From an uncultured Tateyamaria sp. (GTDB lineage Bacteria > Pseudomonadota > Alphaproteobacteria > Rhodobacterales > Rhodobacteraceae), in assembly GCF_947488715.1 (NCBI RefSeq), contig NZ_CANLAG010000003.1, forward strand, positions 124,001 through 188,000: a stretch of 64,000 bases of DNA, written 5' to 3'. The number at the start of each line of letters is the position of its first letter. The first letter of the stretch is position 1. The notes beneath the pieces were generated by a model. It saw only the letters and a program-made list of their open reading frames with translations, searched no databases and was not told the DNA's origin. Of the stretch, positions 52,563 to 61,318 are shown piece by piece. A program made the position numbers and the translations under genes.

Positions 52563-53561
52563 TCAGCGGATGATCAACCGTGGCGCCGGGGCGATGGGAA
52601 TAAAGCCGAGCCGTACCGCACCACCGTCGAGTGTCAGTTCCACATCCAGCGTTTCCGCATTGCCTGACGCACCGGCAAGGGCGTTCAGGATGCCCTCGGC
52701 CTGCCCACGCAGTTGCGGCGGCAGAATGCCTGCGGTTTGCGCCACGTCCAGCATGGCACGCCAGTTCTCGGCCTGAATGGCGACGGTGCCTGTTGGCACA
52801 CCCGTCTGATCAACGTCCAACGCCGCCGACAGGTTCAGCCGCAAGTCGCCCCAGCGCGCCTCTGCCAAATGCAGGTCGATGCGGCGCGGTTGAGGGCGGG
52901 CCTGATCAAGGGCGCGGCGGTCCCATGCGGTATCAAACGTCACGGTCGCCTGCATTTGCAAGCTGTCAAAAGCGGCCGGAATGCTGTCGGGCAGGCGCAG
53001 TGCCGCGCGCGTTGCATCGCCGGGCGCAAAGGTGTCGGCCCGCGCAACAAGGTCGTAAGTTGCCCCCTCTGTCTGGGTCATGGTGAGCGTCAGCGCATCC
53101 GCAGACATTTGCACACCCGATGCGTCACTCACTTGCCAAGCGCCAGCGGTCCAACCCAGTGCCTCCAGTTCGAGGGCCGTGCCGGGATGGAGCTGCAGCG
53201 CCATCGTTCCGCCCTGCATGGTCAGTGTCGAACGGCCCAGGGGGGAGGCGAGCAGGATAGGCCCGTCATCCAGTTGGACGGTTACGTCGCCGGGCCACCA
53301 CGCGGGTGCGCTGATGTCCAAAGCGGCGGTCTCAACCGCAAGGCCAGCGTCAGGATCGGCCACGGCGATGTCGCGCAAACCCGCACGCAGGGTCAACGGG
53401 AAACCGCCGCCCTCGACGGTGCCCAGATCGGCTTGCCAGCCTTCGGCGGCACGGTCGTCGAACCAGGCCTCGACGCCGCCACGCAAACCAGCCGAGGCCA
53501 GCCACCACCAACCGCACCACGCCAGCAGTGCCAGCATCACAACCCAAAGGATTTTGCGCAT
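52563..53561 (-). CDS. DUF2125-type exported protein
   Basis: A 332-residue protein with an N-terminal hydrophobic anchor (ILWVVMLALLAWCGWWWL) and a long beta-rich body typical of DUF2125 proteins, related to AsmA-like envelope families. ATG at 53561 is chosen because it starts the hydrophobic segment; the frame is open upstream only by chance. It is convergent with the extensin-like gene. Confidence 0.85.
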   Translation of the reverse strand: MRKILWVVMLALLAWCGWWWLASAGLRGGVEAWFDDRAAEGWQADLGTVEGGGFPLTLRAGLRDIAVADPDAGLAVETAALDISAPAWWPGDVTVQLDDGPILLASPLGRSTLTMQGGTMALQLHPGTALELEALGWTAGAWQVSDASGVQMSADALTLTMTQTEGATYDLVARADTFAPGDATRAALRLPDSIPAAFDSLQMQATVTFDTAWDRRALDQARPQPRRIDLHLAEARWGDLRLNLSAALDVDQTGVPTGTVAIQAENWRAMLDVAQTAGILPPQLRGQAEGILNALAGASGNAETLDVELTLDGGAVRLGFIPIAPAPRLIIR

Positions 53562-53626
53562 TGGCCCTCTTTCCCTCTGATCCGAAATCGGGTCTACCCC
53601 ACCCGGTGCAAAGAGGACCAGAGAGA

Positions 53627-54157
53627 ATGAGCATGTGGGTATTTGGCTATGGCAGCCTGTTGTGGAACCCTGGCTTTGACGTGGCCGAAGAGGTGATGGC
53701 GACATTGCCCGGCTGGGCGCGGTCGTTCTGCATGCGGTCGATCCACCACCGGGGTTCCGAGGCGGAGCCGGGGTTGGTCCTGGCCCTTGATGCCGTGCCG
53801 GAGGCACAGTGCGCAGGTGTGGCCCTGCGCGTGGCCCCCGGAACCGAAGATGCCACGCTGGAATATCTGCGCGCACGCGAATTGATCTCGTCAGCCTACC
53901 TTGAACGCGACCTGGAGTTGACGCTGGCCGACGGTCGTATCGTCACGGCTGTCACCTATGTCATCGACCCGGACCACGCGCAGTATTGCGGCGGCCTACC
54001 GCTCGAAGAGCAGGCGCAGATCATCGCGCATGCGGTCGGCGGGCGGGGGCCAAACCGTGATTATCTCTACAACACGGCGCAGCATCTGGCGGACATGGGC
54101 GTGGCGGACCCCGACCTTGATTGGCTGTCACGCCGCGTCGCAGCGATTTCGGCATAA
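53627..54157 (+). CDS. ChaC-like gamma-glutamylcyclotransferase
   Basis: A 176-residue protein with the substrate-loop motif FGYGSLLWNPGF at the N-terminus and the catalytic-region Glu in YLRARELISSAYLER. ChaC enzymes cleave glutathione to 5-oxoproline and Cys-Gly. It is divergent from the DUF2125 gene with 65 bases between and lies upstream of the MotA-like gene. Confidence 0.9.
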   Translation: MSMWVFGYGSLLWNPGFDVAEEVMATLPGWARSFCMRSIHHRGSEAEPGLVLALDAVPEAQCAGVALRVAPGTEDATLEYLRARELISSAYLERDLELTLADGRIVTAVTYVIDPDHAQYCGGLPLEEQAQIIAHAVGGRGPNRDYLYNTAQHLADMGVADPDLDWLSRRVAAISA

Positions 54158-54231: not shown

Positions 54232-55449
54232 ATGGCGCAGACCACACCCGAGGCACAGCCGTATTTCTCACACCCGGTGCGGCAGATTATTTTGATGCTA
54301 AGCGTCCTGATCCTGTTTGGGGGCGGGGCCGTTTTCGCATTGCCCAGCGTTTTGCCGGTGTTTCAGGCCAACCTGTATTTGAACGGGTTCATCGCCTTTG
54401 TGTTCCTGATCGGCGTCGCGTCATGTTTCTGGATGGTGTACCAACTGTTCACCTCTGTGCGCTGGATCGAAGGGTTTGCGGCCGACGGCCCGACCGCCAG
54501 CGGCAAGGCCCCGCAATTGCTGGCGTCTTTGGCGTCGCTGCTGCGGTCCCGCGGGGCGCGCATGCAGCTTTCGGCCTCGTCCACGCGATCCATCCTCGAC
54601 TCGGTCGCGACACGGATCGACGAGGTGCGGGAAATCACGCGCTACATCGTCAGTATGCTGATTTTCCTCGGTCTTTTGGGCACCTTCTACGGGCTGGCCA
54701 CAACCGTCCCCGCGCTGGTCGACACCATCCGCAGCCTCGCCCCGCAAGAGGGTGAAGCAGGCGTTGAGGTGTTTGGCCGTCTGATGACCGGCCTTGAATC
54801 GCAGCTGGATGGCATGGGCGTTGCCTTTGCATCGTCGCTGTTGGGGCTTGCGGGATCGCTTGTTGTGGGTCTGCTGGAACTGTTTGCAGGTCACGGCCAA
54901 AACCGGTTCTACCGCGAGCTTGAGGAATGGCTCAGCTCCATCACCCGTGTGGGTCTCAGTGCCGAAGGCGAAAGCGGCGGTGACCAGAGTGCGATGGCGG
55001 GCGTGATCGACCATCTGGCCGAGCAGATGGAAAGCCTGCAAACCATGTTCACACAGTCGGACATCAGCAGATCCATGGTGGACGACAAGCTGGGCAAACT
55101 GGCCGATGCGGTGGACCGTATGACCACGCAAATGCAGGCGCGCGATGCGGGCGGCGATGCACTGACCCGCGTGGCCGAAGGGCAGGAACGCCTGATCGAA
55201 GTGATTGAACGTCAGGGCACAGGCGACGGTATCGACGCCGAAAGCCGGATGCGTCTGCGGTCGATCGACGTCCAGATGCTGCGTATCCTCGAAGAGATCA
55301 GCGCAGGCCGCCAAGAGACCATGGCCGAGTTGCGCACCGACATTTCGGCGCTGGCAACCGCACTCAGCCAACCGCGCGGCCAAAACCGCAAGCAGGGCAA
55401 CAATGGCGGGCGCGGCCCGCGCAATAATCCAGTGCAAGGGGACGGCTGA
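54232..55449 (+). CDS. MotA/TolQ/ExbB-like proton-channel protein
   Basis: A 405-residue membrane protein with four hydrophobic segments at about 18-40, 49-72, 138-160 and 196-219. The third contains GLLGTFYGLATTV and the fourth GVAFASSLLGLAGSLVVG, the core pattern of the MotA/TolQ/ExbB family. After residue 220 a cytoplasmic helical tail of about 180 residues extends to the end (EQMESLQTMFTQSDISRSM), longer than usual. It lies two bases upstream of the OmpA-domain gene; together they look like an ion-driven stator. Confidence 0.88.
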   Translation: MAQTTPEAQPYFSHPVRQIILMLSVLILFGGGAVFALPSVLPVFQANLYLNGFIAFVFLIGVASCFWMVYQLFTSVRWIEGFAADGPTASGKAPQLLASLASLLRSRGARMQLSASSTRSILDSVATRIDEVREITRYIVSMLIFLGLLGTFYGLATTVPALVDTIRSLAPQEGEAGVEVFGRLMTGLESQLDGMGVAFASSLLGLAGSLVVGLLELFAGHGQNRFYRELEEWLSSITRVGLSAEGESGGDQSAMAGVIDHLAEQMESLQTMFTQSDISRSMVDDKLGKLADAVDRMTTQMQARDAGGDALTRVAEGQERLIEVIERQGTGDGIDAESRMRLRSIDVQMLRILEEISAGRQETMAELRTDISALATALSQPRGQNRKQGNNGGRGPRNNPVQGDG

Positions 55450-55451
55450 CC

Positions 55452-58019
55452 ATGGCCCTGTCGCGGCGCACAGGGGCTCGGTTCCAGGCATCGATCTGGC
55501 CCGGTTTCGTGGATGCGATGACCGGGCTGTTGTTGGTCCTGATGTTTGTCCTCACCATTTTCATGGTGGTGCAATTTGTGCTGCGCGAAACGATCACGGG
55601 TCAGGAAACGGAACTGGATCAACTGGCGACTGAGGTTGCTGCGTTGGCTCAGGCTTTGGGGTTAGAGGAACGGCGGTCCAGTCAGTTGGATGCGCGGCTG
55701 TCATCGCTGAACGCGACTCTGAACGATGCCCAGGCCCAGGTCGCAGCACAGGCCGCGCAAATTGCGGCGCTGACAGGCGAACGGGATGCGGCGTCTGCCG
55801 CACTTGAGACCGCCCGCACCCGTATCACCGGGTTTGAGGCGCAGGTGGCGGCCCTCATTTCCGAACGCGATGGCGCTTTGGCCAATGTGGCGGGTTTGGA
55901 AACCGAACAGGCGCGTTTGCTGTCCGAACAAGAGGCGCTCAACCTCGCGTTGGCCCAAGCGCGCACAGAGGTTGATGCCCAATCCGAGGCCGCGCGTCTT
56001 GCCGCTGCGCGCACCGAGGCGTTGCAGGCCCTGATTGCCGATTTGCGCAGTCGGAACGCGGCCAGCGCAGATCAGGCGGCTGGATTGCAGGCCGATTTGG
56101 ACGCTGCACAAGCGGCGCTGAGCGCAGAAGAAGCCGCGCGTTTGGCTGATATCGCCGCCGCCGAGGCGTTGCGGGCGCGGCTGGAAACAGCGGATGCCGA
56201 GTTGACCGCGATGACCCTCGCGTTGGAGGCCCAACGCAAAGAGGCCGAGGACACTCTGACCCTGCTGGCGGCGGCACGTGCCGCCGAAAAGGATGTGAAC
56301 GCAGAACTGGCGACGGTTATGGCGGCACTTGCCTTGGCACGGGAACAGAATGAGACGCTGGGCGATGACCAACGCGGGCTTGAAGCCCAGCTTGCCGCGG
56401 CGCTGGTCCGGTTGGAAAACGCGCAAGGCAGCACGGCATCCGCAGAGGCGCGGATCGAGAGCTTGCAGGGCGAACTGGCGTCCGCACTGGCCGCATTGGA
56501 CGGTGCCAAGGCGGAAAATACGGCCCTTGCCGGTGAACGATCCAGCCTCGAGGCCCAATTGGCAGCCGCGTTGCTGAATGCCGAAGGTGGGGCAGCTGCG
56601 GCTGCGGATCTTGAGGCGCAACTGGCGCGGGCATTGGGGCAACTGGACGAACGGGCGGCGGCCGTATCGACGCTGGAGGCACGGTTGAACGCGGCCGAGG
56701 CGGCTCTGGATGGTGGTACGGCGACGACTGCGGCATTGCAGACGCAATTGGGTGATGCGCAGGCGGCGCTGGCGGCCCGCGACGCCGAATTGGCGGAACT
56801 GCAAGCCCAGCTTGGTGAAGCCGAAGGCGCGCGCGCGGCGTCCGCCCAAGAGGTTGCCCGCCTCGAAGCCCGCCTGACCACGCTTGAGGCGCGTATCGCT
56901 GCGTCCAATCTGGAAATGGAGGATGCGCGGGACCGCTTGGCGGCTGCGGTTGCTGCGAAACTGGCAGCCGAGGGGCAATTGGCGGCGCAATCGGGCGACA
57001 TCGACGATCTTCAGGTGCAATTGGCGCGCGCCATCGCTGCGCGGGATGCAGCACTGGCCGATGCAGAGGCCGCAGGCAGCAGCAACCAGGAGGTGCGTGA
57101 CCAGTTGGCGGCGGCCTTGTCAGCACGTCTCGCAGCCGAGGCCGAGTTGCAAAACCTTGGAACAGACACCGCTGAAGTGCGGGCCGCGCTTGCCGCTGCA
57201 TTGGCGGACAAGTCTGCGGCAGAAGCGGCGCTGGCCAACCAAACATCCGAGGCGGACCGCCGGGCGGTTCTGTTGGCTGCGGCACGCGACGCGTTGAGCG
57301 CCGAAGAGGCCGCGACGCTTGAGGCACAGCGGCAGACCGAATTGTTGAACCAGCAGGTCGCAGCCCTGCGGTCGCAGTTGGGGCAGTTGCAGGCCCTGCT
57401 GGATGACGCCGTGGCCCGAGACGCAGCGCGCGACGTGCAACTGCAATCGCTGGGATCAGAACTGAACACCGCTCTGGCCCGTGTGGCCGCCGAAGAGCGC
57501 CGCCGCCGCGAGTTGGAAGAGGCCGAGCGCAAGCGGCTTGAGGCCGAAGCGCAGGACTTGGAACGCTACCGTTCGGAATTCTTTGGCCGGTTGCGCGACG
57601 TGTTGGGCACGCAAGAAGGTGTGCGCATCGTCGGCGACCGCTTTGTGTTCTCATCAGAGGTGTTGTTCCCGCCCGGTGGCGCGGAATTGTCGACTGCGGG
57701 TGAAGGCGAAATCGCCAAGATCGCGGGCATTTTGCGCAACATCGCGGGCGACATCCCGGCAGAGATCGACTGGGTCATTCGGGTCGATGGCCATACCGAC
57801 AACGTGCCGTTGTCTGGCACGGGCGAGTTTGCCGACAACTGGGAACTGAGCCAGGCGCGCGCCCTGTCGGTGGTCAAATATATGGTCAACTTTTTGGGCA
57901 TCCCGCCCAACCGTTTGTCGGCCAACGGGTTTGGGCAATACCAGCCCCTCAACCCCGAAGACTCGGCCAGCGCACGCGCGCAGAACCGGCGCATCGAGTT
58001 GAAATTCACTGAGAAATAG
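55452..58019 (+). CDS. MotB-like OmpA-domain protein with ~650-residue coiled coil
   Basis: An 855-residue protein in three parts. Residues 16-44 are one membrane helix with FVDAMTGLLLVLMF; Asp21 sits where MotB has its proton-carrying Asp. Residues about 50-715 are a very long Ala/Leu/Glu/Arg coiled coil with near repeats such as LEAQLAAAL. Residues 724-855 are an OmpA-type peptidoglycan-binding domain (RVDGHTDNVPLSG with Asp779, SQARALSV with Arg803). The coil could span far into the periplasm. The partner is the MotA-like gene two bases upstream. Confidence 0.9.
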   Translation: MALSRRTGARFQASIWPGFVDAMTGLLLVLMFVLTIFMVVQFVLRETITGQETELDQLATEVAALAQALGLEERRSSQLDARLSSLNATLNDAQAQVAAQAAQIAALTGERDAASAALETARTRITGFEAQVAALISERDGALANVAGLETEQARLLSEQEALNLALAQARTEVDAQSEAARLAAARTEALQALIADLRSRNAASADQAAGLQADLDAAQAALSAEEAARLADIAAAEALRARLETADAELTAMTLALEAQRKEAEDTLTLLAAARAAEKDVNAELATVMAALALAREQNETLGDDQRGLEAQLAAALVRLENAQGSTASAEARIESLQGELASALAALDGAKAENTALAGERSSLEAQLAAALLNAEGGAAAAADLEAQLARALGQLDERAAAVSTLEARLNAAEAALDGGTATTAALQTQLGDAQAALAARDAELAELQAQLGEAEGARAASAQEVARLEARLTTLEARIAASNLEMEDARDRLAAAVAAKLAAEGQLAAQSGDIDDLQVQLARAIAARDAALADAEAAGSSNQEVRDQLAAALSARLAAEAELQNLGTDTAEVRAALAAALADKSAAEAALANQTSEADRRAVLLAAARDALSAEEAATLEAQRQTELLNQQVAALRSQLGQLQALLDDAVARDAARDVQLQSLGSELNTALARVAAEERRRRELEEAERKRLEAEAQDLERYRSEFFGRLRDVLGTQEGVRIVGDRFVFSSEVLFPPGGAELSTAGEGEIAKIAGILRNIAGDIPAEIDWVIRVDGHTDNVPLSGTGEFADNWELSQARALSVVKYMVNFLGIPPNRLSANGFGQYQPLNPEDSASARAQNRRIELKFTEK

Positions 58020-58025
58020 CGGGTT

Positions 58026-58997
58026 CTACTGGACCGTGACTGTCGCGGTTTCGGTGTTGATCACACGGTTGCCCCGCAACAGGCTGACCGTGCCCAGATA
58101 GGTGCCCGACTGCCAAGCTGATGTGGTCCGTTTTTTCCCCACTGCACGAAAAAACTGCGCCTGATTTTTGTCCAATGTGACGGTTTCATCCATCATCTGT
58201 CCGCCCGGCGCGTCGATCACCAGCCGTACTTTGTCACCCGCCCGGCCGCCAAAGGCATAGCCAAACACGACGATGGCCGGGGCAGAGGGTTTCAGGGAAT
58301 CGGCTCCTGCCGTGCCTTGCTTGATCCGGTCGAACTTTGGCACCGCATCGGCAAACCCCACGGTTAGAATTCCGCCCGGTCGATAGGGGAGGGGATTTTG
58401 CCAGAGGGTCTCGGTGCTGGGTGCGCCGCATGTGACCTGATTGTCGGGGTCAAAGGGATCAACAACTTTGCCGTCCTTGCGCACGGTCAGATGGACATGC
58501 GGAAACTGTGTGCGCCCTGACAATCCAACTTGGCCCAGAACGGTCGACTTGCGTACGCGGTCGCCCTTTTTGACGGCGAGAGATCCGCGTTTCATGTGGC
58601 AATACTGGGTTGTCCAACCGCCGCCATGGTCGACGACAATGCCGTTGCCGCATTCGCGACCACTGATCCGCGCCGCCGACTGGCGTGTGAACAATTCGTC
58701 TTTCATGCCATCGCGGGTCGCACGCACGGTGCCGGGGGCTGCGGCGATCACATTCACACCGCGCCGCATCTGTTCCAACGATTGCAGGGCAAAGTCCGTA
58801 CCCTGATGTGTGTCATAGCTGAGGTTCGAACACCGAAAATCCATCGACTGGTTGGATGGGTCGTGGTCGACATATTGCTGCACGAAACAGGCGCTGCCCA
58901 GATCGCAGTCAATCGGTGGGTTCAAAATGATGTCCCTCGCCGCCAGAGAACCGGCGGCGAGGGGAAACAACAGGGCGGCAAGCGCAGCCGCGCGCAT
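58026..58997 (-). CDS. M23-family metallo-endopeptidase
   Basis: A 323-residue exported LytM-type protein. A signal peptide ([20 protein letters not shown]) is followed by the zinc ligands HQGTDF (His and Asp) and PHVHL (His-x-His), so the enzyme should cleave peptide bridges in peptidoglycan. Its ATG overlaps the clpA stop by one base (TGATG). It is convergent with the MotB-like gene and may work on the wall site where that complex binds (inference). Confidence 0.92.
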   Translation of the reverse strand: MRAAALAALLFPLAAGSLAARDIILNPPIDCDLGSACFVQQYVDHDPSNQSMDFRCSNLSYDTHQGTDFALQSLEQMRRGVNVIAAAPGTVRATRDGMKDELFTRQSAARISGRECGNGIVVDHGGGWTTQYCHMKRGSLAVKKGDRVRKSTVLGQVGLSGRTQFPHVHLTVRKDGKVVDPFDPDNQVTCGAPSTETLWQNPLPYRPGGILTVGFADAVPKFDRIKQGTAGADSLKPSAPAIVVFGYAFGGRAGDKVRLVIDAPGGQMMDETVTLDKNQAQFFRAVGKKRTTSAWQSGTYLGTVSLLRGNRVINTETATVTVQ

Positions 58998-61318
58998 CAG
59001 TCCGCCGTCAAAAGCGGTGGTTTGTCGCCGGACAGGCGCGGTTTGTCCGGGCCTTCCAGTTTGAGGTCTAGTTCGCCGTTTTTCACGCCGACCTTGACCA
59101 CGCCACCCTTCATCAACTTGCCAAAGAGCAGTTCCTCGGCGAGCGGTTTCTTGATGTATTCCTGGATCACACGGCCCAGCGGGCGCGCACCCATCTTGTC
59201 GTCGTAGCCCTTGTCGGCCAGCCATTCGGCGGCCGGGCGCGTCAGTTCGATGGTCACGTTGCGGTCCATCAGTTGCGCTTCGAGTTGCAGCACGAACTTT
59301 TCAACAACAGACAGGATGGTGTCCTTGCCCAATGGCGCAAAGCTGATCACGGCATCCAGACGGTTGCGGAACTCGGGCGTGAACGTGCGTTCGATCGCGG
59401 CAGTATCCTCGCCCTCGCGCCGGTCACGGCCAAAACCGATGGCGGCCTTGGCCATATCTGATGCGCCGGCATTCGACGTCATGATCAGGATCACGTTGCG
59501 GAAATCGACTGTCCGGCCGTTGTGGTCGGTCAGCTTGCCGTGGTCCATCACCTGCAACAGGATATTGTAGACGTCCGGGTGCGCCTTTTCCATCTCATCG
59601 AGCAGGAGCACACAGTGCGGATGCTGGTCGACACCGTCGGTGAGCATGCCGCCCTGGTCAAAGCCGACGTATCCCGGAGGTGCACCGATCAAACGGCTGA
59701 CCGCGTGTTTCTCCATGTACTCGGACATGTCAAAGCGCAGCATTTCCACACCCAGCGTATCCGCCAACTGCTTGGCAACTTCGGTCTTGCCGACACCCGT
59801 TGGCCCGGCGAACAGATAGTTGCCGATGGGTTTTTCAGGTTCGCGCAGACCCGCGCGGGCCAGCTTGATCGCCGAAGACAGGGCGACAATGGCATCGTCC
59901 TGACCAAAGACCACGCGCTTCAGGGACGCTTCGAGATCCTTCAGGGTCTCCGCATCGTCCTTGGACACGTTTTTCGGTGGAATGCGGGCAATCTTGGCCA
60001 CGACATTCTCGATCTCCTTGGTGCCGATGGTCTTGCGGCGCTTGGCGGCGGCGACCAGATGCTGGGCGGCACCTGCCTCGTCGATCACGTCGATGGCGCT
60101 GTCAGGGAGCTTGCGGTCGTTAATGTACCGGCTGGCCAGCTCGACAGAGGTTTTGATCGCGTCCGAGGTGTATTTTACGCCGTGGTGATCTTCGAAATAG
60201 GGCTTGAGGCCCTTGAGGATCTTGGTGGCGTCTTCCACCGACGGCTCGTTCACGTCGATTTTCTGGAAACGACGCGACAGCGCGCGGTCCTTCTCGAAAT
60301 GCTGACGGAACTCTTTGTATGTGGTCGAGCCCATGGTGCGCAGCTTGCCGCCCTGCAGGGCAGGTTTCAGCAGGTTGGACGCGTCCATAGCACCACCGGA
60401 CGTGGCACCGGCACCGATGACGGTGTGGATTTCGTCAATGAACAGGACGGCGTCCTTGTGCTCTTCCAACTCAGTGACCACAGCCTTCAGACGTTCCTCG
60501 AAATCACCGCGATAGCGCGTTCCGGCCAGCAATGCGCCCATGTCGAGCGAATAGATGGTTGTGCCGGACAGCACCTCGGGCGTTTCGCCTGCGACGATCT
60601 TGCGCGCGAGACCTTCGGCAATCGCCGTTTTGCCCACGCCGGGATCGCCAACCAAAAGAGGGTTGTTCTTGCGACGGCGGCACAGCACCTGAATGCAGCG
60701 CTCCACCTCGTCCGAGCGTCCGATCAGCGGGTCGATATCGCCCTCGCGGGATTTTTCGTTGAGGTCCACGCAGTACTTGGCCAGCGCGCTCTCTTTCTTT
60801 TCGCCTTCGGTGACGCCTTGGGCCTCTTCCTCGGCTTCGGGGGCACCGGATACGGGCCGCGCCTCGCCAAAAGCAGGGTCTTTGGCCACGCCGTGCGCAA
60901 TGAAGTTCACGGCGTCATAGCGGGTCATATCCTGCTCTTGCAGGAAATATGCGGCATTGGATTCGCGTTCGGCAAAGATCGCGACCAGGACGTTGGCGCC
61001 AGTCACCTCCGTGCGGCCCGAAGACTGCACGTGAATGGCGGCGCGCTGGATCACGCGCTGGAACGCAGCGGTTGGGACCGCCTCGGAGCCGTCGATGTCG
61101 GTCACCAGGTTTGACAGGTCGTCGTCCACGAACTCCTCAAGCGTGCCGCGCAGCTCGTCAATGTCGACCGAACAGGCCTGCATGACGCGACGGGCGTCGG
61201 GTTCATCCACCAGGGCCAGCAACAGATGTTCCAGCGTTGCAAATTCGTGCCGGCGTTCATTGGCCAGCGCAAGAGCCTGATGAATGGCTTTTTCCAGTGT
61301 CGTCGAGAATGAAGGCAC
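58997..61318 (-). CDS. clpA: ATP-dependent Clp protease ATP-binding subunit ClpA
   Basis: A 773-residue AAA+ unfoldase. The N-terminal double-Clp repeat is followed by two ATPase modules ([13 protein letters not shown] and [12 protein letters not shown]). The ClpP-docking loop reads IGFG within [11 protein letters not shown] charged linker of about 30 residues separates the N-domain from the first module. No clpS gene is next to it in this window. It feeds a downstream M23 gene by a one-base overlap. Confidence 0.96.

Follow-up and report, generated by a model that had tools for sequence, protein, structure and literature searches.

The MotA/TolQ/ExbB superfamily of 5:2 motors has been divided into a flagellar and a generic type, and according to the available portions of PMC12505986 the generic B subunits have neither an extended linker nor an OmpA-like domain. 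Komagataeibacter hansenii, which has no flagellum, carries adjacent motA and motB genes for proteins of 348 and 321 amino acids; in the accessible text of PMC6570709 and PMC6315621, overexpression of both genes made the cells longer and left them in chains, colonies spread more widely, GFP fusions of both proteins were located at the poles, and BLAST matches of MotB were OmpA/MotB proteins of Rhizobium, Rhodospirillum, and Magnetospirillum (46-48% over 95-99%). Domain II of TolA is a long element in the periplasm that is driven by a motor from this superfamily; it measures 110-335 residues in the sample given in the available part of PMC12204202. This paper describes a gene pair from an uncultured Tateyamaria sp. 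(Rhodobacteraceae), at positions 54232-58019 of a stretch of 64,000 nucleotides (contig NZ_CANLAG010000003.1, 124,001 to 188,000; the whole stretch is referred to as the window), in which a MotA/TolQ/ExbB-like protein (A) is encoded directly upstream of a partner (B) that carries a giant coiled coil and a wall-binding domain. We consider it reasonably probable (roughly 0.6) that the two proteins form an ion-driven envelope motor of the 5:2 type that does not serve flagella and whose long coil runs uninterrupted along the wall as a shaft or leash.

The two open reading frames (ORFs) that a first-pass annotation had described as MotA-like protein and partner were confirmed at these positions. 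The A gene has the sequence AGGAG 7 bases upstream of its ATG, and a gap of 2 bases separates it from the B gene downstream. The features of the pair are as follows.

54232-55449, forward strand: A subunit gene, ATG start, 405 amino acids, predicted TolQ/ExbB/ZorA/MotA fold with a C-terminal cytoplasmic helical tail
54658-54705, forward strand: core of the third transmembrane helix (TM3) of A, LIFLGLLGTFYGLATT, residues 143-158, from alignment A1
54682-54684, forward strand: Thr151 of A, predicted ion-path residue, invariant in 121/121 A sequences
54835-54837, forward strand: Ser202 of A in TM4, invariant in 121/121 A sequences
54979-55446, forward strand: C-terminal cytoplasmic helical tail of A, residues 250-405, from alignment A1 and AlphaFold, with low model confidence
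55452-58019, forward strand: B subunit gene, ATG start, 855 amino acids, NCBIfam NF006542
55497-55514, forward strand: WPGFVD motif of B with Asp21, predicted proton carrier, present in the adjacent ORF of 80/80 and 40/40 loci
55506-55592, forward strand: single transmembrane helix of B, residues 19-47, from the AlphaFold model
55599-57605, forward strand: coiled coil of B, 669 residues (50-718), without proline and in one heptad phase
57663-57989, forward strand: OmpA peptidoglycan-binding domain of B, residues 738-846, PF00691

The pair resembles that of K. hansenii in its adjacent genes, its A protein with four transmembrane helices, and its OmpA-type B protein with one such helix, the K. 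hansenii form being short and without mention of a coil (PMC6570709 and PMC6315621, as far as available). In Sinorhizobium meliloti CP090106, a PRK09039 protein and a 'MotA/TolQ/ExbB proton channel family protein' are annotated in the same gene order as in the window, and the B protein has 342 amino acids by its coordinates versus 855 in the window. On the basis of the sizes, gene order, and BLAST matches of the K. hansenii pair, and of the S. meliloti annotation, these are probable short-coil members of the same family. Genome G117 was tried as a match to the K. hansenii sizes and discarded, its partner having 902 amino acids.

Homologues of A were detected in 250 of 385 sampled alphaproteobacterial genomes (E 0.001, the window's own genome included), mostly with one match per genome, and a profile search at E 1e-15 matched 94 of 398 genomes sampled across the phylum (87 in the class, 7 outside). 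Two sets of loci were compared. The Rhodobacterales set comprises the closest named loci, i.e., the best 80 of 586 confirmed candidates, nearly all of them titled as Rhodobacterales (L083, L102, and L111 are titled otherwise or more broadly). The class set comprises 40 loci chosen from the strongest matches in the class on contigs with sufficient room, and covers 38 families by the numbering of the tool. The B gene lies directly downstream of the A gene in 80/80 loci of the former (gap -29 to 12 bases) and in 40/40 of the latter (gap -4 to 74 bases).

The first-pass annotation had proposed a coiled coil of about 650 residues, roughly ten times the plug and linker of MotB, and both estimates held: 669 residues stand against 52 for MotB, as counted from the sequence in the available part of PMC12505986. 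AlphaFold predicts residues 50-718 of B to be helical with two brief interruptions, at 420-424 and 569-572 (the model of the full protein has a mean pLDDT of 66), and residues 50-715 are free of proline, with alanine making up 30%. A power spectrum of hydrophobicity computed over these 666 residues shows a single peak, at 3.5 residues (9.5), with values below 0.3 at 3.45 and 3.55. In 14 of 15 sliding windows along the coil at most 4% of shuffles reached the observed value, while the stretch 596-658 was not above shuffle (21%). The heptad phase stays within 112-174 degrees over 22 windows and is similar on either side of each helix break. The homologues share this periodicity: the peak falls at 3.48-3.52 residues in all but one of the 78 Rhodobacterales coils and in 38 of the 40 from the class set; these 118 coils together contain a single proline, in the class set.

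Coil length ranges from 276 to 970 residues in the Rhodobacterales set and from 143 to 731 in the class set. With a rise of 0.1485 nm per residue in a coiled coil, this corresponds to straight lengths of 41-144 nm and 21-109 nm, respectively, and to about 99 nm for the window B protein. The periplasm is 20-30 nm deep, so that most coils, being several times longer, could not stand upright and must lie along the wall or fold; the earlier suggestion of an anchor that reaches far from the inner membrane is therefore not upheld in that wording. The maximum of 335 residues given for TolA domain II in the available part of PMC12204202 is exceeded by 75/78 coils of the Rhodobacterales set and 8/40 of the class set. 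The longest B protein observed has 1157 amino acids (Mameliella sediminis, L065:11180-14653), followed by 1145 in Candidatus Rhodobacter lobularis (L099:11237-14674) and 1126 in a Marinovum sp. metagenome-assembled genome (L049:11246-14626). Long B proteins were also observed in two genomes related to the window at class level only (911 amino acids, L146:2139-4874; 902 amino acids, L223:3922-6630), which indicates that the coil expansion probably occurred more than once.

Coil length was found to be quantised. It was measured as the distance from W16 to G728, using alignment-based anchors, in homologues with both ends; L178, for which an anchor was lacking, and partners cut by the end of a contig or locus were left out. 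No sequence is shared between the 78 Rhodobacterales loci plus the window on one side and the 40 class loci on the other, and the 151 sequences of the full length set include six pairs that are apparently the same genome twice (100% A identity). Taken modulo 7, the 29 distinct lengths of the class set are distributed as 0,1,7,1,0,18,2 (chi-square p 1.4e-11) and the 66 distinct lengths of the Rhodobacterales set with the window as 1,14,15,7,3,20,6 (p 2.4e-5). Among periods 5-13 the distribution is non-uniform only at 7 in both sets, and when periods of 2.3-14 were scanned, 3.5 gave the strongest signal in both (R 0.79 in the class set, 0.44 in the Rhodobacterales set). The favoured length classes 5, 2, and 1 modulo 7 differ by 3 or 4, and steps of 3 or 4 residues are the stutter and stammer of coiled coils.

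Because related sequences are not independent, the lengths were also thinned and compared between nearest relatives. Thinning to one sequence per 60% A identity left the signal in place (n=53, R 0.68, p 2e-11). Among 75 disjoint nearest-relative pairs, 60 were unequal in length, with differences modulo 7 of 24,14,1,9,7,2,3, so that multiples of 7 occur in 24 of these 60 (expected 8.6, p 1e-6). As a control, the proline-rich linker of an OmpA-like protein encoded upstream of the pair in relatives (see below) was not quantised (n=21, R 0.15, p 0.62; one distance was negative owing to a bad anchor). Coil length itself is labile: between two Roseovarius whose A proteins are 83% identical it changes by 133 residues, or 19 heptads. 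Slippage on DNA tandem repeats was rejected as the cause, since direct repeats of at least 40 bases were absent from three coil genes; two weak, short tandem arrays are present in the window B gene. Ancient in-register duplication may be the source of the quantisation. Evolution appears to leave the length of the coil free and to hold its phase.

These data bear on the alternative that has to be weighed most seriously, in which the coil folds back at hairpins (420-424 and 569-572), leaving the anchor at an ordinary distance and the extra length as filler or a compact bundle. AlphaFold interrupts the B helix at two sites that contain glycine, and lengths from 143 to 970 residues would be incompatible with a rod that has to bridge the periplasm. 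However, the phase is similar across each of the breaks, and hairpin loops would be expected to absorb arbitrary lengths rather than net lengths quantised at 3.5 residues. We therefore regard folding back as rather unlikely; read plainly, the data suggest that the coil is one continuous structure with its ends in phase and not a set of hairpins.

The A subunit scores 13.0 bits against Pfam PF01618 (MotA_ExbB), below the cut-off of 22.9, and surveys based on Pfam would consequently miss at least the window member. Indeed, a search of the host genome with this model missed the A gene and matched two other genes, which by reading of their sequences are TolQ, followed by TolR- and TolA-like ORFs elsewhere on the window's contig, and a flagellar-type MotA on another contig. 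The AlphaFold model of A (mean pLDDT 69) has helices at 16-46, 48-85, 115-168, and 177-243, and GLLGTFYGLATTV is present at residues 147-159, in agreement with the four membrane helices and the core reported in the first-pass annotation. In structural comparison the best matches of the model were TolQ (Z 11.7), ExbB (11.5), ZorA (10.5), and MotA (9.5), where TolQ and ExbB span 11.7-10.9 and rows within Z 1 count as tied. The top 26 PDB rows were all from TolQ, ExbB, ZorA, or MotA complexes (Z 11.7-9.1), and the first unrelated row had Z 9.0. As judged from its model, A has the fold of the MotA/TolQ/ExbB superfamily, with TolQ/ExbB nearer to it than flagellar MotA. When the PDB was searched by sequence with alignment A1, only coiled-coil noise came back, and absence of the family from it carries no meaning.

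The residues that line the candidate ion path are conserved throughout. In the 121 A sequences (120 loci, 80 from the Rhodobacterales set and 40 from the class set, plus the window), G147, G150, T151, and G154 are invariant. T151 is part of a GLLGT motif that aligns with the threonine of GLFGT in the TolQ of the same genome, in an hhalign comparison that is itself marginal (E 0.009, probability 4.5%). The invariant Ser202 takes the place of the TM4 threonine of TolQ in a gapless alignment made by eye (DGMGVAFASSLLGL / PGIAEALLATGLGL). The tail that follows is conserved in alignment A1 up to about residue 375 and is shorter in many class members, where profile matches end near position 323 of 384.

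B matches NCBIfam NF006542 (PRK09039, 'peptidoglycan -binding protein') with 852.6 bits against a cut-off of 388, the best stretch being residues 310-855; the family name carries no function. The MotB-position Asp21 in FVDAMTGLLL, noted in the first-pass annotation, is present in B and in 120/120 adjacent partners; the pattern used to search for partners includes VD, and not one adjacent ORF among the 120 loci failed it. By eye, FVDAM resembles TPFVDVM in the TolR of the same genome. The OmpA domain is complete as well, with all 98 positions of PF00691 covered (64.4 bits), and Asp783 and Arg803, which we take to be the positions that hold diaminopimelate in OmpA-type domains, are invariant in 119/119 B sequences. 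Its closest solved relatives are the wall-binding domains of MotB and PomB (MotB 3khn, 9e-17). In the available parts of PMC9275681 and PMC10470522, Rhodobacter sphaeroides RSP_1880 (a 'peptidoglycan-binding domain-containing protein') is listed near CenR sites and among the proteins found with DalA; any link to the B family would be conjecture.

The pair has an acidic residue where the B helix begins and a Thr and a Ser in TM3 and TM4 of A, all invariant in the 120 loci and the window; their equivalence to TolQ/TolR residues was judged partly by eye. This conservation is what a passive tether would not need. According to that alternative, the stator architecture has been kept and ion conduction lost, so that the inner membrane is merely tied to the wall; the very long coil and the wall-binding domain would fit it, and a partner that could receive motor output was not found. 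In view of the invariant Asp21, Thr151, and Ser202, we consider it improbable.

The neighbourhood of the pair was read from 50 to 62 kb of the window. Directly flanking are two genes that are probably outside the system.

53528-54157, forward strand: ChaC-like gamma-glutamylcyclotransferase, by Pfam
58026-59225, reverse strand: M23 peptidase, convergent with the pair, by Pfam (58026-58979 scanned)

Besides ChaC and M23, Pfam identified a DUF2125 gene, and reading of the ORFs indicated HisC-, TyrA-, ClpA-, and glyoxalase-like genes. Flagellar genes were absent among the neighbours read or scanned with Pfam, as the first-pass annotation had also stated, and TolA, TolB, and Pal among those read. 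The ChaC-like gene is upstream of the pair in 74 of the 75 loci of the Rhodobacterales set in which it was searched for, with the class loci outside that search; a ClpA-like gene lies within 2.5 kb in 57/75. The M23 peptidase, earlier put forward as a functional neighbour, lies within 400 bases in only 39 of 75 loci and is a weak candidate for a partner.

Elsewhere in the class, a secreted protein with a long proline/alanine-rich linker precedes the pair in 27/40 loci by single-linkage BLAST clusters (21/40 by motif), with a C-terminal OmpA domain in 5/5 proteins scanned (e.g., L118:2790-3953), and is a candidate third component there. Five genomes of the window's family, its own included, gave only weak OmpA-type matches (at most 38.5 bits, versus 350 and 365 in two carriers of the gene), on which basis the gene is probably missing from them. 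Loss of this gene was rejected as the cause of coil expansion, the median lengths being 253 in the 27 class loci with it and 242 in the 13 without (p 0.87). Further upstream, clusters of 20, 18, and 8 class loci contain genes of suhB, efp, and thiE type, as read from exemplars; in S. meliloti CP090106, thiamine phosphate synthase and inositol monophosphatase genes precede the pair.

Such recurring housekeeping surroundings in the class also argue against a Zorya-like defence system or sensor of envelope damage with its output on the A tail. There are points of likeness to ZorAB: the best PADLOC matches are ZorA1 for A (E 1.2e-12) and ZorB3 for B (E 1.5e-20), B has an OmpA-type domain, ZorA is among the structural matches of A, and ZorA has a C-terminal cytoplasmic tail, as does A. 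However, the length of the window pair is in the periplasm and not in the tail, and neither defence genes in general nor ZorC-, ZorD-, or ZorE-like genes were seen among the neighbours read or scanned with Pfam (with PADLOC, only the pair itself was scanned). Moreover, A had no match in 50,697 phage records and matched 5 of 72,556 plasmid records, all of them replicons larger than 3.5 Mb. A role in defence or damage sensing is very improbable on these grounds.

The distribution of the pair is not that of a flagellar component. A FliG_C match was found in 228 of the same 385 class genomes; A and FliG_C occur together in 153, A alone in 97, FliG_C alone in 75, and neither in 60 (odds ratio 1.26, Fisher p 0.33), so that the presence of A is independent of FliG_C and the pair is not tied to flagella. 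The weakest alternative, an auxiliary flagellar stator, can hardly be maintained: although the OmpA domain of B is closest to MotB/PomB in the PDB and the host genome has a FliG_C match, 97/250 genomes with A are without one, the host has a separate flagellar-type MotA, and flagellar neighbours were not seen. The stator-type pair proposed in the first-pass annotation is supported by the separation from flagella, the adjacency of the two genes, the conserved Asp, Thr, and Ser, and the wall-binding domain; the model of A, on the other hand, lies nearer to TolQ/ExbB than to the flagellar stator.

Small genomes also carry the pair, with proteins of 258/356 amino acids in a genome of about 0.9 Mb, where the profile match runs over two stops, and of 289/490 amino acids in one of about 1.4 Mb. 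In a further set of 29 loci (L153-L181), mostly from small or weakly matching genomes, a recognisable partner was found in 17. A-like genes adjoining no recognisable B were observed at L163, L165, L168, L169, L172, L173, L174, L177, and others, many of them in small genomes; at L180 the partner may have diverged, in the form of an overlapping ORF; and L175, L179, and L181 have weak A-like stretches inside ORFs of more than 800 amino acids, possibly from other motor families.

In the proposed envelope motor, five A subunits would surround two B helices, protons would pass by Asp21 of B and Thr151/Ser202 of A, and A would turn relative to B. The coil, which is too long to stand upright, would lie lengthwise in the periplasm, a shaft or leash with no torsional break, and tie the motor to peptidoglycan tens of nm away. 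Torque would act between the anchor in the wall and the tails of A in the cytoplasm. Its most likely task would be at poles and septa, in the coordination of envelope growth or constriction parallel to Tol-Pal, as suggested by the published overexpression of the probable short-coil homologues of K. hansenii; this role in division is put forward with less confidence than the motor as a whole. TolQR/ExbBD provide the best structural matches of A, and the FVD-type helix of B is, by eye, like that of the TolR in the same genome; the window system differs from them in the OmpA domain and giant coil of B, the cytoplasmic tail of A, and the absence of adjoining TolA, TolB, or Pal. From flagellar MotAB/PomAB, to which the B domain is closest, it differs in its A model and in having no flagellar link. 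A bolder version remains doubtful. In it, the ion motor is rotary and turns a coiled coil that is stiff to torsion, reaches about 140 nm at most, and runs along the periplasm in the manner of a flexible drive cable, so as to work peptidoglycan at a distance, at the poles or septum; evolution would tune the length of this shaft freely and hold the helix phase at its far end. We know of no motor with such a lateral shaft.

Several observations weigh against the motor as proposed. Model confidence is modest for both proteins, the best Foldseek E for the A model is 0.012, and by the tool's own warning helical models reach Z 13-14 by chance; comparison of A with the host TolQ is marginal at the sequence level, and with the flagellar-type MotA it gave no similarity. 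The two helix breaks in the B model leave room for folding back. The length signal is less pronounced in the Rhodobacterales set (R 0.44) and loses significance after thinning at 50% A identity (n=12, p 0.085); the P values treat lengths as independent, which those of relatives are not; and among the 60 nearest-relative pairs of unequal length, the next most frequent difference modulo 7 is 1, with 14 pairs. A survey of the pairing, as proposed in the first-pass annotation, found the genes adjacent in all 120 loci of the two main sets, yet 12 of the 29 further loci, some of them weak matches, have no recognisable partner within 1.5 kb. The K. hansenii pair is probably homologous, a kinship that rests on sizes, adjacency, and published BLAST matches. 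According to the available text of PMC6570709 and PMC6315621, its phenotype came from overexpression, which in E. coli was without effect on shape, and the authors, going by topology, judged its MotA to be more like flagellar MotA than like ExbB/TolQ; they also saw wider colony spreading. Finally, ion flow, rotation, the 5:2 ratio, dimerisation, and wall binding are inferred or predicted.

The B family had already been named; what is new here is the spread independent of FliG, the adjacency, the invariant residues, and the one-phase coil with its quantised length. Among the titles and abstract openings listed by searches of the open literature, with subscription papers and supplements outside the search, none concerned the giant coil or its quantised length, and the searched passages of PMC9275681, PMC10470753, PMC7327166, and PMC10470522 contain no mention of ExbB- or MotA-type proteins beyond Tol. 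The family crosses the division drawn in the available portions of PMC12505986: the A model is nearest to the generic fold, yet B has the OmpA domain and extended linker that generic motors are without. About two of every three alphaproteobacterial genomes sampled, small ones included, encode this presumptive energised motor, which has no established function in the sources consulted and is apparently a cell-envelope motor that has been overlooked so far. The quantised length of its coil offers a direct quantitative handle on function. If the pair works on the wall, Tol-Pal would be joined by another envelope motor in a class that is mostly without Lpp, as stated in the available part of PMC10470522.

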